Shown here: positions 8,082-40,728 of the stretch, one piece after another | Layout: each line of letters opens with the position of its first letter | How positions within the stretch are numbered: position 1 is the first letter of the stretch | Source: a virus | Direction: 5' to 3' (one strand) | Virus record (IMG/VR): IMGVR_UViG_3300028608_000029 | Coordinates: 1-45,628 of that record | DNA length: 45,628 nucleotides | Position numbers and translations under genes: made by a program | The notes under the pieces: generated by a model | Database searches by the model: none | Seen by the model: only the letters and a program-made list of their open reading frames with translations | Told to the model about the DNA's origin: nothing

Positions 8082-8091
8082 GTCAGCATAA

Positions 8092-8121
8092 ACTACCAGA
8101 CGGGATATCCCGTCTGGTAGT
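8092..8121. terminator. Perfect 30-bp palindrome, bidirectional terminator
   Basis: Two 15-base arms (ACTACCAGACGGGAT and its exact complement) meet at GATATC. It lies between convergent genes (stops at 8081 and 8141). CATA precedes it at 8087-8090 and CTATGCTTTTTTCTTT follows, so it can end transcripts from both sides and carries TATG elements outward on both strands. Confidence 0.85.
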
Positions 8122-8140
8122 GTAGTCTATGCTTTTTTCT

Positions 8141-9886: not shown

Positions 9887-9922
9887 CATAGACTAGATAT
9901 CCGATCGGATATCTAGTCTATG
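9887..9922. terminator. Perfect 36-bp palindrome with CATA/TATG ends
   Basis: The 18-base arm CATAGACTAGATATCCGA is followed by its exact reverse complement with no loop. CATA and TATG form the two ends, so the same TATG element points outward on both strands. It starts five bases after the preceding stop. A GCTTTATAGG tail follows rather than a strong T run, so it may act as terminator, promoter or both. Confidence 0.75.
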
Positions 9923-16204: not shown

Positions 16205-16211
16205 GCATAGA

Positions 16212-16239
16212 CTCCCATAGGCCTTTCGGCCTATGGGAG
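16212..16239. terminator. Bidirectional hairpin between convergent paralogs
   Basis: CTCCCATAGGCC pairs with GGCCTATGGGAG, loop TTTC. CATAG lies just left (16206-16210) and TATG just right (16241-16244). Short T runs lie on the minus-strand side of neither stem clearly, so dual termination is inferred from position between stops at 16204 and 16256. Confidence 0.75.
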
Positions 16240-16255
16240 GTATGTCTGTGTCTAT

Positions 16256-22417: not shown

Positions 22418-22453
22418 ACCTCCCACTAACGACGATGGCTGTTAGTGGGAGGT
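22418..22453 (+). terminator. Hairpin with TATGCC after paralog 3
   Basis: ACCTCCCACTAAC pairs with GTTAGTGGGAGGT across a ten-base loop, starting seven bases after the stop. TTTTCCTATGCC and a T/C-rich tract follow. Confidence 0.75.
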
Positions 22454-22514
22454 TTTCCTATGCCATCTTTTCCTTCTGCCTCCATGAGGGGCCAAGATAA
22501 AAAGGATTAGTATC

Positions 22515-23726
22515 ATGTTTAAAACCACGAAAGCAAAACAAGCAGTTACCTTTTTGCCCGAAAACGACACGAACATCGAGACGTCGATCAAGGCCAAATA
22601 CAGTGTTGTTGCTGTGAAGATCCGCACGGCGGAGCAAGTTGAGTTCTGGGAAGGAACTCCTCTGTATTACCATTTCATCGACGAGATGGTAATCGCCAGA
22701 GCACCGCGCTGGATCTCTTTCAAGAAAAAGAATTTCGAATTGATCGAAGGCGGTATGGACATCGTGACTTATGAGATGGAGTTTGCCTCCTTCCGTGGTC
22801 AGTCGGCGATCAAAGCCACTTTTCATGTAGAGGCTAGCGAAATCAATAGCACCTACTCCAATTGGAAGATTGCGGCCAATGCCCGAGCCCTGGCCAATCA
22901 TCGTACTTCCAGTGCGGGCGATTCATTCGACAAACTGGACAAGAACCTTATCACGATTTTCCATACCCGATTGGTGACCGGCCAACTGGACCTGATCGTC
23001 AACGAGAACATCACCGACCTGCAATCGGAGCTGGATGTCTTGGCAAAAATGTGCGCCAAGTACTCTGGCAAGCTGTCATTCAATGAAACACTGATCGAAA
23101 CCAAATGGAGTGGTATTATCATCGATCGGTTCATTGCGAGCTTCGATGAGGCAGATCTGTCTGCTGGTCATAAGGCCGGCATCCACGTTAAGTGGGCGAC
23201 CAATTACGAGAACCTGGATTTTGGTCCCCGTAAAGGACTGACGGTTCAGCGTCGCGAAAGTCTTTCCATCAAGCAGAACCTTCACCATTGGATGGATCTG
23301 TATGACTTTGATGAGAAGCTCGTTGGAAAGCGGGTTGGCGTTCTGGAACGCAATGAGTTCATCCTGGCAATTCTGAATGGCCAAGTCAGCGGGCGTGGCG
23401 AAACCAACGATGCCATGTTCGATCGGATCTACACGCAGCTTCTCTCTTCCGAAGTATCTAAAGAGTTGAAGAAGCATTCTAAGTTTGAGAATGAACATGT
23501 CGATGTTCAGGTTTCCTACGGAGAACGTTTGTATGTTCGAACATGGCCCATCGGTACGGAAGTTCTCGATGTGGCATTTAAGAACCTTCCGTACACGGTA
23601 TTCGAATGGGATGACATCTCCGAGTATTTTGCGGCAAATCACGCTGCGCCTAACTGGCGTGGTGAGATGCATATTCGCGGTCTTGTTTCCAAGATCATGT
23701 ATGTGACATTCGGCATCGAAGCATAA
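22515..23726 (+). CDS. Tandem paralog family, member 4 (403 aa)
   Basis: Leader AAGGATTAGTATC before ATG 22515 resembles that of member 3. The core is LSIKQNLHHWMDLYDFDEKL then VGKRVGVLERNEFILAIL (about residues 252-290); the LYP motif of the others is LYD here. Residues after it (to 403) parallel the tail of member 2 in length. It starts MFKTTKAKQAVTFLPENDTN. Function unknown. Its stop lies nine bases before the first of the twin hairpins bounding the structured RNA. Confidence 0.75.
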   Translation: MFKTTKAKQAVTFLPENDTNIETSIKAKYSVVAVKIRTAEQVEFWEGTPLYYHFIDEMVIARAPRWISFKKKNFELIEGGMDIVTYEMEFASFRGQSAIKATFHVEASEINSTYSNWKIAANARALANHRTSSAGDSFDKLDKNLITIFHTRLVTGQLDLIVNENITDLQSELDVLAKMCAKYSGKLSFNETLIETKWSGIIIDRFIASFDEADLSAGHKAGIHVKWATNYENLDFGPRKGLTVQRRESLSIKQNLHHWMDLYDFDEKLVGKRVGVLERNEFILAILNGQVSGRGETNDAMFDRIYTQLLSSEVSKELKKHSKFENEHVDVQVSYGERLYVRTWPIGTEVLDVAFKNLPYTVFEWDDISEYFAANHAAPNWRGEMHIRGLVSKIMYVTFGIEA

Positions 23727-23735
23727 AGCCTATAT

Positions 23736-23761
23736 CCAGGATACCCATGTGGGTATCCTGG
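23736..23761. terminator. Terminator-like hairpin, left twin
   Basis: CCAGGATACCC pairs with GGGTATCCTGG, loop ATGT. The arms are the same as in the hairpin at 24220-24245. CATTGGTCTATG follows, then TTTGTCAAATATGCGGC, giving two TATG elements ahead of the RNA element. Confidence 0.75.
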
Positions 23762-23800
23762 CATTGGTCTATGTTTGTCAAATATGCGGCATAAAGAAAG

Positions 23801-24213
23801 AAATGCCTCACCAAAGACTCCCGAAGGAATTTTTGGTGAGGTGGATTTCCGCCTCCGCTCATCGGTCTCGATGAGTGAGACTAGTTAGTAAGTGCTACTA
23901 CACTTACTAACGTGTGCATCTAGGGATAGGCCCCGACGATGCAGGAGGTACTTCGTATGCTAGTGCATACTAGTGGGTTTATTCTCAGATCTAGTTCAGA
24001 ATACGCTGAACTAGAAAGGCTCGAGAAGCTAACCTCCAAACCGAATCTCAATAATGATTCTTCTGATTTACCTCATCGCTTTAGGAGAACTCCTAATGTA
24101 GCGATAAGGCATCCATCAGAAACAAGACCTGTCTATAAGTTCAGGACGGACTCTACCGCACATACGCGCCAAATTCGTGGCAGACTGTTAGGTATGCAAC
24201 TATAGGACATACC
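23801..24213 (+). ncRNA. Candidate novel structured RNA, about 410 nt
   Basis: Nearly every part of this stretch folds on itself. Perfect helices include 23806-23815/23832-23841 (10 pairs), 23856-23864/23869-23877 (9, one G-U), 23884-23894/23901-23911 (11), 23915-23920/23938-23943 (6), 23955-23960/23965-23970 (6), 23990-23999/24006-24015 (10), 24061-24067/24115-24121 (7) enclosing 24075-24086/24091-24105 (12 with a three-base bulge), and 24191-24196/24208-24213 (6). 23944-23949/24032-24037 (6) closes a multibranch loop over two hairpins. An alternative stem 23838-23844/23849-23855 would disrupt the first helix. The unit sits between two terminators with identical arms and begins after TATG, so it looks like its own transcript. 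I know of no RNA class that it matches; tmRNA and RNase P signatures are absent. A short reading frame (23957-24205) lies inside it. Confidence 0.6.
23957..24205 (+). CDS. Doubtful small frame inside structured RNA (82 aa)
   Basis: AGGAGG at 23943-23948 lies eight bases before ATG 23957, the strongest Shine-Dalgarno in the window, and the frame stays open for 82 codons (start MLVHTSGFILRSSSEYAELE). Against it: codons such as AGG, AGA, CTA and ATA are common, unlike the neighbours; the product is very basic and Ser/Arg-rich with no fold visible; and the DNA is full of perfect inverted repeats that do not respect codons. The AGGAGG can also pair with 24032-24037. It could be a translated regulator frame, an accident, or an RNA with both roles. 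Confidence 0.25.
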   Translation: MLVHTSGFILRSSSEYAELERLEKLTSKPNLNNDSSDLPHRFRRTPNVAIRHPSETRPVYKFRTDSTAHTRQIRGRLLGMQL

Positions 24214-24219
24214 AACTAT

Positions 24220-24245
24220 CCAGGATACCCATTAGGGTATCCTGG
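24220..24245. terminator. Terminator, right twin
   Basis: CCAGGATACCC/GGGTATCCTGG with loop ATTA, arms identical to the hairpin at 23736. ATATGCTAGTAGCTTTTTTC follows. It would end the structured RNA and, from the other side, the minus-strand Kelch gene. Confidence 0.8.
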
Positions 24246-24272
24246 ATATGCTAGTAGCTTTTTTCTTTTGAC

Positions 24273-25307
24273 TTACAGCCTGTACGACCAACATTTGGTG
24301 GTGGTATTCAAACCAACCTTACCACCAAAGATGTACAAGTAGCCATTCAGAACGCACGATGCCGAAAGTACTGTTGGATCGCCAGGAAAATCATCATCGA
24401 CCTCGAACGAACGACTGATGAAGTCCGCCTTCCAGAGAGCTTTGCGAGGAGTGTAAACACCATCTTTGTGCGTGCCGCCAAAGAGATAGAAATGGTCATT
24501 GTCAAAAGCCATGGACTGTTGAGCTATGCTTTCCGGAATAGGGCTAGACTGTTCGGAAGAACCGGTTATCGACAACATGCGGCAGTCCGCAGCCTGCACA
24601 CCAGTACTCAGACGCTCACCACCTACGACGACGAATTGATTGGAGCCGGGCCACGGAACAACTGCCGGGTAATCAGTAGAAACGCCAGTCTTGGATAGGG
24701 ACTCTGTAGACACAGTCACCATGTCGGTGGTAATTCTGATCATGTAATCTTCGTTACCAGCGCCGGCGGTGATGATATCGCCATTCCATGCAAACGCCCA
24801 TCCGTGTGCCCTCAGCGGACTACCCGGAACCATGATGCTTGCAAATTCAAAAGCGTTGTTTCCAAGATCGCGTACCCTCATGATCCACGTTTCCGTGGTA
24901 GTCATCTTGGTACCGATGAAGTACTGATAGTCTCCTATCGTGACCGCATACGGATCCAGAAGCTTGACGTAGTTGGGATCAGTACCAGGCTCAACTTTAA
25001 ACCACGCTCCAGTACTGGGAGTGTAGGTCCAGAGGTCACTGGCGTTACCAGTAACGTTTCCATTACTCGCAATTGTGCCTCCGCCGTACAAATAAATCTT
25101 GTCGTTGCCTGCCACTACCGCAGAACGCATTCGAGATCCCGCTGGGAGCTCATTAACAGCGCTCCAACGCGACGATGAGAACAGTCGAACCTTTGAGTTA
25201 CCTGACTTTCCGAATATGTCAGAAATCTCTTTTAGACCCAAGGCAGTCTTGGTGACTACTTTTGATACTCTCTTAAGACCACTCGCGGTCTTTACACTAA
25301 TGGTCAT
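24273..25307 (-). CDS. Kelch-like beta-propeller surface protein (344 aa)
   Basis: GGAAGC lies four bases before ATG 25307. A short N-terminal segment with two near-copies (TASGLKRVSKVV / TALGLKEISDIF) may attach it to the virion. The rest repeats Kelch-type blades: KIYLYGGGT with SDLWTYTPSTGAW (about residues 70-105), QFVVVGGE, HFYLFGGTHKDG with KALWKAD, and YLYIFGGKVG with TKCWSYRL at the end. Kelch propellers bind proteins or sugars; in a phage a fibre or decoration role is likely, in line with the other minus-strand genes. The GG doublets and aromatic spacing are the evidence; five to six blades fit the length. Confidence 0.85.
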   Translation of the reverse strand: MTISVKTASGLKRVSKVVTKTALGLKEISDIFGKSGNSKVRLFSSSRWSAVNELPAGSRMRSAVVAGNDKIYLYGGGTIASNGNVTGNASDLWTYTPSTGAWFKVEPGTDPNYVKLLDPYAVTIGDYQYFIGTKMTTTETWIMRVRDLGNNAFEFASIMVPGSPLRAHGWAFAWNGDIITAGAGNEDYMIRITTDMVTVSTESLSKTGVSTDYPAVVPWPGSNQFVVVGGERLSTGVQAADCRMLSITGSSEQSSPIPESIAQQSMAFDNDHFYLFGGTHKDGVYTPRKALWKADFISRSFEVDDDFPGDPTVLSASCVLNGYLYIFGGKVGLNTTTKCWSYRL

Positions 25308-25725: not shown

Positions 25726-25736
25726 ATAGCATAAAG

Positions 25737-25763
25737 CCTACTACTCCCATTGGGAGTAGTAGG
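25737..25763. terminator. Bidirectional hairpin between ParB-like and helicase genes
   Basis: CCTACTACTCCC pairs with GGGAGTAGTAGG, loop ATT. GCATAAAG lies left (CATA 25730-25733) and ATATGC right. Stops of convergent genes at 25725 and 25771 are both within 12 bases. Confidence 0.8.
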
Positions 25764-25770
25764 ATATGCA

Positions 25771-28143: not shown

Positions 28144-30459
28144 ATGTCCAAATTCAATCCGCGCGCCGTTGACCACGCGCAGGTCAACCTGGCCGCTGCT
28201 GCCATCGCCATGGCTCAAAACGCCTGGGCCGACGGCAAGCTGAAGGACCATTCCGAAAACGGTCAACTGTCGGCCGCCATGATCTCGACCGAGTCGTTCG
28301 AATCGTCGGCTCTGCGTACCCAGGTCGAAGGCACGATGCAAGACCTGATCGACAGCTGCACGAACTTCGCTCGCGGCAGCAAGGTTCTGTCGATGATCGG
28401 CGCCAAGCGCGGCCAAGACGGTCAGCTCGAAGCTGACATGCAGTCGCACACCCACCAGCATGCCATGCAAGCCGTCGGCTACGCACTGGCATCGGCCATG
28501 AACCCGCGTGCTCACCTGACCCGTCAGGGCAACAAGCAAGCCGGCGTGACCAAGGCCTGGAACGACGTCTTCTCGCCCGACAGCGGCGGCATCGACCCCA
28601 GCAAGCTGGGCAAGGCCACCGTCGAGTCGTACGACACGAAGCCGAACGAAGACATCATGAAGCTGACCGCGGCTTACGCCCTGGCCACTTCCACGCAGAA
28701 CAGCTTCGCTGAACTGTTCTTCGGTACCGTGAACCTGGCTCCGGACGAATACGCCCTGTCGATGGAAATCCCGTTGATCGGCGTGTACGACGAAGTGCGC
28801 TACGACATGGAAAACGTCCTGACCGACTTCCATCGTCGCAACATCGTGAACGCGGAAATCGATCACACGATCCTCAAGAACAACATGCTGCTGATCGTGC
28901 CGGTGTACCGTGCCGAAACGGCTGATTCGTTCGTGGACACCAACCTGGTCGCCCCGCGCGTCATCGACACCGAAAACGGTCCCGTGAACACGGCTCCGCT
29001 GGCTGTCGGCATCCGCACCTCGCTGTTCCGCGTTTCGCAAACGGACGCCATGATCGCCAAGGGTGCTCTGGACCAAACCGACGCGCTGGACACCAACGTC
29101 CTCCTGAAGGCCTTCTACATCGCTTTCCAAAGCGCTGACGGCGCCACCAAGGAAGTCGTTCGCGTCGAAGCCGAAGGCATGGGCATGATCCAGTTCCTGC
29201 AAGCTCCGCAGGGTCTGACCCGCACGATGCAGCTGAACTTCACGACGGACAACGTCCAGATCGGCAAGAACACCGCGTTGCACAACCAAGCCACGTCGAC
29301 GCTGCTGACCGCCTTCCAAGGCCCGACCGCCAACACGGCATTCCTGTCGCTGTCGATCCGCGGTGACGTGAACCTGCAAGACTCGGCCATCGAAGTCACG
29401 CCGTCCAAGGTTCAGCTGAACACCATCCGCAACGCGGCTGGCGAATCGCTGACGCTGAAGGATCCGGCCAACGCTGCTCTGGTCAACGTCTTCAAGGGCG
29501 CCGAAGTCATCGCCTTCGAAGTCGATGCTCGCAAGGTCAACTCGAACCTGCGTGAACTCGGCCAGCTGGTGGACTTCAACACGTTCCGTATGTCCTACGG
29601 CGTGAAGCTGGGTTCGCCCCTGTCGGTGCAACGTCCGATCACCAACGGCGACTCGCAAGATGCGCTGCACGCTGCCGCTCTGTCGTACCTGTGCAAGGTC
29701 CGTCAGTCGAACGAAGCCGTGACCACCCTGCTGGGCGAAGTGCAAACGCTGCGCGGCTACCAGAAGCGCAACGACTACATCGCACGTCAGCCGGAATTCC
29801 TGGGCATCTCGTCCTACCTGGTCGAACCGACCCTGGACGAAGTCGAACTGGACCTGCTGGTCATCCCGCAAACGGTCGCTCAGCACGAACGCTACGCCGA
29901 CATCACCAGCCTGATCACGGACACGACCAAGATCGTTTCGTACAAGCTGTGGCAGCTGTCGAACTGGCAAGCTGCTGCCAACCTGTTCGAAGGTACCGAG
30001 GCTCCCCTGCCGAAGGTCATCATCGGTACGGACTTGGCAACTGCCCAGTACGTCAACGTCGTGGGTGATACCCGCACGGTCGGCCCGGACTTCACGTACG
30101 CGAAAGCCATGTCCCCGGACAAGCGCATTCGCGACATGATCTTCATCGCCTTCAACTTCCCGACCAGCCAGCCTGGCGTTCCGCATCCGCTGAACCACGG
30201 CATGATGCTGAACAAGCCGGAAGTCGTCGCCGCGCTGAACCTGAGCCGTTCCTCGCACTCGCGTGAACTGATCGTTCACCCGTCCTTCCGTCACATCTGG
30301 CTGACCCCCATCCTGGGCGTCATCTACGTGAAGAACCTGAAGGAAGCCCTGACCCGCAAGGCCACGCTGCAAGTTGGCGGTGACCTGGTGGTTGGCCAGG
30401 CCGAAGGCGCTCCGGGTTCGTCGGAAGACAATCCGCTGCACACGAAGGAAGCGGCGTAG
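28144..30459 (+). CDS. Major capsid protein, phiKZ gp120-like (771 aa)
   Basis: AGAGG lies six bases before ATG 28144. Its length suits phiKZ-type major head proteins (about 750 residues). The gene is far richer in GC and in a narrow set of codons (CTG, GCC, ACC, GAC) than almost all others here, which fits the most abundant phage protein. The N-terminal 60 residues are helical, Ala-rich and hold S-T-E at 48-50, a possible head-protease site. The remaining fold (SMEIPLIGVYDEVRYDMENV, LLIVPVYRAETADS, long mixed domains and a C-terminal HIWLTPILGVIYVKNL) is compatible with an HK97-like capsid with extra domains. The call rests on length, codon bias and context; I cannot compare it with databases. 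Confidence 0.75.
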   Translation: MSKFNPRAVDHAQVNLAAAAIAMAQNAWADGKLKDHSENGQLSAAMISTESFESSALRTQVEGTMQDLIDSCTNFARGSKVLSMIGAKRGQDGQLEADMQSHTHQHAMQAVGYALASAMNPRAHLTRQGNKQAGVTKAWNDVFSPDSGGIDPSKLGKATVESYDTKPNEDIMKLTAAYALATSTQNSFAELFFGTVNLAPDEYALSMEIPLIGVYDEVRYDMENVLTDFHRRNIVNAEIDHTILKNNMLLIVPVYRAETADSFVDTNLVAPRVIDTENGPVNTAPLAVGIRTSLFRVSQTDAMIAKGALDQTDALDTNVLLKAFYIAFQSADGATKEVVRVEAEGMGMIQFLQAPQGLTRTMQLNFTTDNVQIGKNTALHNQATSTLLTAFQGPTANTAFLSLSIRGDVNLQDSAIEVTPSKVQLNTIRNAAGESLTLKDPANAALVNVFKGAEVIAFEVDARKVNSNLRELGQLVDFNTFRMSYGVKLGSPLSVQRPITNGDSQDALHAAALSYLCKVRQSNEAVTTLLGEVQTLRGYQKRNDYIARQPEFLGISSYLVEPTLDEVELDLLVIPQTVAQHERYADITSLITDTTKIVSYKLWQLSNWQAAANLFEGTEAPLPKVIIGTDLATAQYVNVVGDTRTVGPDFTYAKAMSPDKRIRDMIFIAFNFPTSQPGVPHPLNHGMMLNKPEVVAALNLSRSSHSRELIVHPSFRHIWLTPILGVIYVKNLKEALTRKATLQVGGDLVVGQAEGAPGSSEDNPLHTKEAA

Positions 30460-30598: not shown

Positions 30599-30628
30599 CT
30601 CCTACTCTCCCGAAAGGGAGAGTAGGAG
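30599..30628 (+). terminator. Strong hairpin closing the capsid unit
   Basis: CTCCTACTCTCCC pairs with GGGAGAGTAGGAG, GAAA tetraloop: the most stable short hairpin in the window. GCTTATGCCGCATGC follows with TATG at 30632-30635; there is no T run, so it may act as an mRNA end-protecting stem. Confidence 0.75.
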
Positions 30629-30667
30629 GCTTATGCCGCATGCATTTGAATGTAAGATATTTCAGGA

Positions 30668-40679: not shown

Positions 40680-40690
40680 TCGTGCATAGT

Positions 40691-40718
40691 CCTACTAGTC
40701 CCTTTCGGGACTAGTAGG
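40691..40718. terminator. Bidirectional hairpin after nrdB
   Basis: CCTACTAGTCCC pairs with GGGACTAGTAGG, loop TTTC. GCATA lies left (40684-40688) and TATGC right (40722-40726), completing the CATA-hairpin-TATG layout between convergent stops at 40679 and 40729. Confidence 0.8.
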
Positions 40719-40728
40719 CTTTATGCCG

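Follow-up and report, generated by a model that had tools for sequence, protein, structure and literature searches.

The RNAs ROOL and GOLLD form homo-oligomeric RNA cages. Phages of the phiKZ type, which are transcribed by their own polymerases and replicate within a nucleus-like shell, have to our knowledge yielded very few noncoding RNAs. ROOL and GOLLD have been described as large ornate RNAs of phages and prophages (PMC12286853), and phiKZ makes stable structured noncoding RNAs of about 100 and 180 nt out of its UTRs (PMC8545117). The late promoters of phiKZ carry an experimentally mapped TATG motif, with the start at the G, that is necessary but not sufficient (PMC4666361). Here, we analysed a 45.6-kb stretch of viral DNA (the window, taken at its full length), in which a preliminary description had singled out positions 23801-24213 as a candidate structured RNA.

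The window, which is filed as a virus record, is a fragment of the genome of a phiKZ-like jumbo phage. Indeed, it encodes a phiKZ-type major capsid protein (28144-30459; Pfam PhiKZ_MCP, E 6e-161), a phiKZ-type replicative helicase (PHROG 3213), phiKZ-type internal head proteins and both ribonucleotide reductase subunits. Its closest named relatives are the Burkholderia phages FLC6 and FLC8 (Chiangmaivirus) and SURPRISE13, with a helicase identity of ~65%. In the gene layout, which is a codon-based ORF map, the candidate RNA lies between two convergent genes, a 403-aa gene on the plus strand ending at 23726 and a Kelch-repeat gene on the minus strand ending at 24273. The latter (24273-25307; Pfam Kelch, E about 1e-12 to 1e-14) directly adjoins the candidate RNA and has no counterpart in 12 related records, and the 403-aa gene is without relatives in phages or viral contigs. 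Since no relatives of either flanking gene were found, the locus sits in a lineage-specific region. The features of the junction are as follows, with the strand given where one was assigned.

23721-23773: left bidirectional gene-end module, made of GCATAAAG, a hairpin at 23736-23761 and TCTATG at 23768-23773
23727-24272: noncoding junction of 546 nt, from the ORF and codon maps
23733-23761, plus: left copy of a 29-nt direct repeat, 93% identical to the right copy
23762-24216, minus favoured: structured core of 455 nt, with G.U asymmetry
23770-23773, plus: TATG after the left hairpin, which for an RNA read on plus would be a late-promoter motif of the phiKZ type
23782-24163, minus only: predicted long-range helix 23782-23791 / 24154-24163, mean p 0.90
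23789-23796, minus: CTTTATGC after H1, which would mark a minus-strand 3′ end
23806-23841: H1, predicted 16-position hairpin with one mismatch and the loop CGAA
23858-23875: H2, predicted 7-9 bp hairpin CTCATCG/CGATGAG
23884-23911: H3, predicted perfect hairpin of 11 bp (on minus, 12 bp with one G.U)
23915-23943: H4, predicted helix TGCATC/GATGCA with inner GGG/CCC
23939-24205, plus: ORF of 88 codons with AGGAGGT upstream of an ATG at 23957, judged noncoding
23944-24037: predicted multibranch domain with closing helix GGAGGT (23944-23949) / ACCTCC (24032-24037) and inner hairpins at 23955-23970 (6 bp) and 23990-24015 (10 bp)
24043-24060: predicted 5 bp hairpin GAATC/GATTC
24061-24121: bulged arm of 7 bp, 9 bp (on minus, 12 bp with two G.U) and 6 bp
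24167-24182: predicted hairpin GCCA/TGGC
24187-24216: predicted hairpin GTT-GGTATG/CATACC-AAC with a bulged A
24210-24213, minus: TATG after the right hairpin, lying within a predicted helix; for an RNA read on minus, a candidate late-promoter motif
24210-24264: right bidirectional gene-end module, made of CATA (TATG on minus), a hairpin at 24217-24248, TATGC at 24247-24251 and a T-run at 24259-24264 on plus
24217-24245, plus: right copy of the 29-nt direct repeat, 484 nt from the left copy

The junction stands out by its folding. Compared with the other noncoding gaps of the window, 23727-24272 is extreme (z -16/-14), the runner-up (z -6.9) being a gap of 130 nt dominated by one hairpin, and the top-scoring windows of a 200-nt scan across the whole window also fall there. 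The folding z of 23771-24275 is -10.8 on plus and -12.2 on minus, with 0/100 shuffles equally good, a comparison that the preliminary description had proposed; without the end hairpins (23762-24216), it is -8.3 and -9.3, respectively. About a dozen helices have a high pairing probability on either strand. All the helices and features named previously were located in the sequence, including the dense perfect helices, the six-pair helix over two hairpins (GGAGGT/ACCTCC), the long bulged arm, the identical arms CCAGGATACCC/GGGTATCCTGG of the end hairpins and TATG beyond the left hairpin (at 23770 and 23783), and the density of structure is above that of the rest of the window, as had been claimed. 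The structured stretch is thus real, but its limits are better placed at 23762-24216 for the core, or at 23727-24272 with the end modules, than at 23801-24213.

The preliminary description implied a plus-strand reading, and here the evidence leans weakly the other way, so that minus is in our view the somewhat more probable sense strand of the core. First, the complementary strand folds with equal or better energy (-234 on minus versus -221 on plus, 13 kcal/mol in favour of minus). Confident G.U pairs in the core number 9 on minus and 2 on plus (sign test p 0.065). Moreover, only on minus is H1 followed by CTTTATGC, an arrangement resembling a minus-strand gene end, and this 8-mer recurs behind the left hairpin and behind those at 25737 and 40691. 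On the minus strand, the predicted long-range helix 23782-23791 / 24154-24163 would close the whole core. Against minus, the plus strand has a better-looking TATG (GGTCTATG, 23766-23773) and a T-run past the right module; loop composition is uninformative. The choice of strand is ambiguous because both ends have TATG motifs on each strand, and so is the exact fold, since the strands are comparable in energy and some long-range pairs differ between them.

The hairpins at both ends are copies of a module that the phage uses at its gene ends. This module, of the form GCATA-perfect hairpin-TATGC, is present once at each of the other four junctions between convergent genes in the window, in gaps of 45-59 nt: 8081/8141 (59 nt), 16204/16256 (51 nt, with GTATGTC replacing TATGC on the right), 25725/25771 (45 nt) and 40679/40729 (49 nt). 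In contrast, the junction 23727-24272 carries two. When one 484-nt repeat unit is removed, a standard junction of 62 nt remains, and its joined outer halves, GCATAAAGCCTATATCCAGGATACCC-ATTA-GGGTATCCTGGATATGC, have nearly the format of 25725/25771. Two modules instead of one, together with this clean 62-nt junction, indicate that the RNA is a discrete cassette bracketed by phage gene-end signals. As for the earlier proposal of an own transcription unit, the bracketing stands, and it is stronger than was then known because the end hairpins are two copies of the standard terminator-like module of convergent genes; that the candidate RNA is transcribed we infer from the sequence.

More generally, a perfect hairpin followed within ~10 nt by YYTATG(C) recurs on both strands at convergent gene ends. 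Sites of this module in the window are 8090-8130, 9887-9922, 16209-16241, 22418-22462, 25733-25768, 30599-30634 and 40688-40725, and it is also found in the FLC6 genome, where TATG occurs no more than 25 nt away from 47/79 strong hairpins, on one side or both, against a background of ~0.04 per side. At the candidate locus, TATG stands beside both end modules, on both strands. TATG being the motif of phiKZ late promoters, this module may act as a terminator, as a promoter or in both capacities. At convergent ends, TATG follows the hairpins on the 3′ side of genes in either direction, which suggests that 3′ ends are marked by the module, in addition to or in place of starts; it is the position of the module that points to a terminator role. 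A 22-nt sequence of the right-hand hairpin (24222-24243) has an exact match between genes of Halocynthia phage JM-2012 (25139-25160), a hint that distant jumbo-type phages may have this hairpin sequence in common.

The pairing itself has an unusual composition. The G.U share of the window helices is ~3-4% on plus and ~6-7% on minus, and control RNAs of related phages have 10-14% on the presumed sense strand and 4-7% on the other. That G.U pairs are so scarce whichever strand is read is truly odd, and it is the chief argument for an explanation at the DNA level or one based on two strands. In the former, the array of perfect palindromes would act as cruciforms or single-stranded DNA hairpins, in replication, recombination or packaging, or as a transcription roadblock, the folding of RNA being incidental. 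Helices made almost wholly of Watson-Crick pairs on either strand (3.9% and 6.2% G.U), extreme folding of the core under DNA parameters too (z -7.4), flanking repeats and a position exactly between convergent genes are all consistent with such an element. We nonetheless regard it as unlikely: one hairpin suffices at the four other junctions of the window and at the 17 non-overlapping convergent junctions of FLC6 (40-79 nt, counted from the deposited annotation), the nested multibranch architecture and the bulged arm are more RNA-like, some asymmetry favours one strand, and the only cue from a replication or packaging gene is the helicase 1.5 kb away.

The end modules bear on two further explanations. 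A complete gene-end module separates the RNA from each neighbouring gene, which argues against a long structured 3′ UTR belonging to either the Kelch gene (minus) or the 403-aa gene (plus) that would extend past the first terminator and stabilise the mRNA or be processed from it. We give this a small chance, given that both stop codons directly adjoin the stretch, that the minus-strand helix GTCAA/TTGAC begins immediately past the Kelch stop and that the phiKZ precedents are UTR-derived (PMC8545117). The 484-nt unit, its 93% identical 29-nt direct repeats and the clean empty site obtained by joining the flanks could also betray a MITE-like non-autonomous mobile or passenger element that entered the terminator and duplicated a 29-nt target, its structure reflecting the ends or the decay of the element and being functionless for the phage. 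Such an element is very improbable, as it is present in a single copy in the 45.6-kb fragment and in none of the phages, plasmids and viral contigs searched; furthermore, the repeats are the terminator-like hairpin itself, a recurring gene-end signal, so that recombination between such hairpins would be enough.

Does the stretch encode a protein? The 88-codon ORF has AGGAGGT 6 nt before the ATG at 23957 and ends just ahead of the right hairpin. Its codon score (-0.28 to -0.33 bits/codon) is under that of every 82-codon piece of real genes, with wrong-frame-like usage; it has no Pfam or PHROG match, and no contig encodes a relative, when the translated RNA is used as seed. Elsewhere in the phage, genes have Shine-Dalgarno sites that differ from this one and are weaker. 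A small protein gene was rejected on codon usage, and with it the idea that homologs might keep the protein frame rather than the pairings does not apply; the noncoding character proposed earlier therefore holds. An mRNA for a protein of 82-88 aa, with a structured leader hiding the AGGAGGT site and the start codon, is scarcely credible at -0.33 bits/codon, despite the well-placed ORF.

The candidate RNA belongs to no family that we could recognise. Rfam cmscan of the window at gathering threshold gave 0 matches, ROOL, GOLLD and OLE included, which agrees with the preliminary description in setting it apart from ROOL and GOLLD; for 23601-24400 at E<=10, the matches were chance ones. ARAGORN detected no tRNA in the 45.6-kb window. 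A group I intron, RNase P RNA and tmRNA were rejected, having no Rfam or ARAGORN match in a stretch that lies between two complete genes. A CsrB/RsmZ-like sponge seems unlikely, GGA triplets being few and mostly outside hairpin loops (counted by eye), and an antisense to the 403-aa gene was discarded because the match of 11 nt is expected by chance.

No homolog was found either. Against phages, blastn matched only the end hairpin (the 22 nt of Halocynthia phage JM-2012), and searches of plasmids by blastn and of IMG/VR viral contigs by an exact 21-mer gave none. Conserved-protein routes to a homologous locus, through the helicase in GTDB genomes, the ribonucleotide reductase and the 403-aa neighbour, were equally negative. 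A search for relatives with covariance models had been suggested; two models (R1 and R2) built from the window RNA and run on 22 related whole or partial records gave no credible match (best other E 0.44). The absence of homologs is weak evidence, because each model was built from one sequence and the collections may lack close relatives of the window's own genome. Without a homolog, there is neither covariation support nor a functional clue. The locus had been called an undescribed system: undescribed it probably is, with no Rfam family, but "system" is too strong for a locus whose homologs turned up neither by sequence nor by covariance models.

Another, different intergenic RNA is conserved among the relatives, where it is found upstream of an acyl-carrier-like gene. 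It lies at 196778-197408 on minus in FLC6, and FLC8, SURPRISE13 and three IMG/VR contigs have homologs of it. Its core is hammerhead-like, CUGANGA ... GAAA with complementary stems I and III: GGCUU-CUGAAGA ... CGAAA-UACACACG ... CGUGUGUA-UU-AAGCC in FLC6 and AUCUG-CUGAUGA ... GAAA-CUCCCGUGU ... ACACGGGAG-UU-CAGAU in the distant relative L064. Stem I reads GGCGU/ACGCC in G002, where it has changed in a compensatory manner relative to FLC6. A pattern made from the second hairpin retrieved shorter versions in other phage contigs, stems I and III again matching. The loci are as follows.

Loci: L068 (FLC6 196400-198600), L065, L066, L067 and L064 at 1720-2105, minus
IMG/VR loci: L069, L070, L072, L074, L075, L076 and L077

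In these RNAs, the usual stem II is replaced by two hairpins, one T-loop-like (UUCAAGU) and the other GGGUGAAAGGCCC, and their two loops could pair with each other (UUCA/UGAA). In the Chiangmaivirus relatives, about 180 nt are contained in stem III, and tRNA genes are found close to several other copies. This RNA goes unreported by Rfam at the thresholds used. Homology to the candidate RNA, prompted by a GGG..GGCCC hairpin and by the end hairpin of the L064 copy, was rejected: no core candidate was found by scanning either strand of the window, the FLC6 RNA has no blastn similarity to the window, and R1 and R2 do not match it. FLC6 and L064 apparently share a second noncoding gap (L053:19490-19835, minus, which is FLC6 199490-199835, and L064:2480-2800, minus), with the motifs ATTTGCCCAGAAC and CGATAAAGA-CT-GGGC and z -4.4; the L064 copy contains a tRNA gene.

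Altogether, the locus is probably a noncoding RNA gene of about 455 nt, forming a discrete cassette inside a duplicated bidirectional terminator-like module. This reading is supported by the extreme folding energy, by the noncoding codon usage and the family searches, by the bracketing modules, by the association of hairpins with TATG that is also seen in FLC6, and by the existence of structured noncoding RNAs in phiKZ (PMC8545117) and of another large intergenic RNA in related phages. Against it, selection on RNA rather than on DNA lacks the covariation proof that homologs would give, the G.U scarcity (3-7%) is odd for an RNA under long selection, and a cassette in a region of lineage-specific genes could be recent or dispensable. 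We propose that the non-virion RNA polymerase of the phage would transcribe the RNA from a TATG start beside one end module, that the hairpin and then TATGC would set its 3′ end, and that the folded transcript would consist of about a dozen stable helices in an array, most of them local. Expressed late, such a stable RNA might serve as a scaffold or a decoy, binding protein or RNA during infection; its stability and isolation would faintly suggest a role in trans.

More speculatively, and rather doubtfully, the locus may represent a new class of phage RNA cassette, in which a multi-helix RNA of ~455 nt is inserted or exchanged as a unit between bidirectional terminator-like hairpins of jumbo phages and serves in infection as an RNA scaffold or decoy. 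If such a cassette RNA were made from both strands, this would explain why G.U pairs are nearly absent. If the RNA gene is real, phiKZ-like phages would have a new component, a large and stable RNA provided with start and stop signals of its own. The presence of one module at normal convergent junctions and of two around the RNA would offer a simple rule to find more cassettes in jumbo phages, and the hairpin-TATGC module could itself be put to the test as a termination or end signal of the phage polymerase.

How does the candidate RNA compare with known systems? It resembles the hammerhead-like RNA in being structured, intergenic and of comparable length, and the L064 copy of the latter ends with the same CCAGGATACC hairpin, but the two differ in their place in the genome and in the CUGANGA...GAAA core. 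Like ROOL and GOLLD, whose function is unknown too, it is long, noncoding, densely structured and phage-borne. It is shorter, at about 455 nt, than GOLLD members, which often exceed 800 nt; ROOL and GOLLD often lie near tRNA islands (a tendency, not a strict requirement), whereas the window is devoid of tRNA genes, and the candidate is also set apart by its lack of detected homologs and by its unusually perfect helices. The UTR-derived noncoding RNAs of phiKZ (PMC8545117), to which no sequence relation would be expected, are much smaller and were detected in infected cells, whereas the candidate is a prediction from sequence; nonetheless, they come from the same broad phage group and are, like it, structured, noncoding and drawn from intergenic or UTR stretches.
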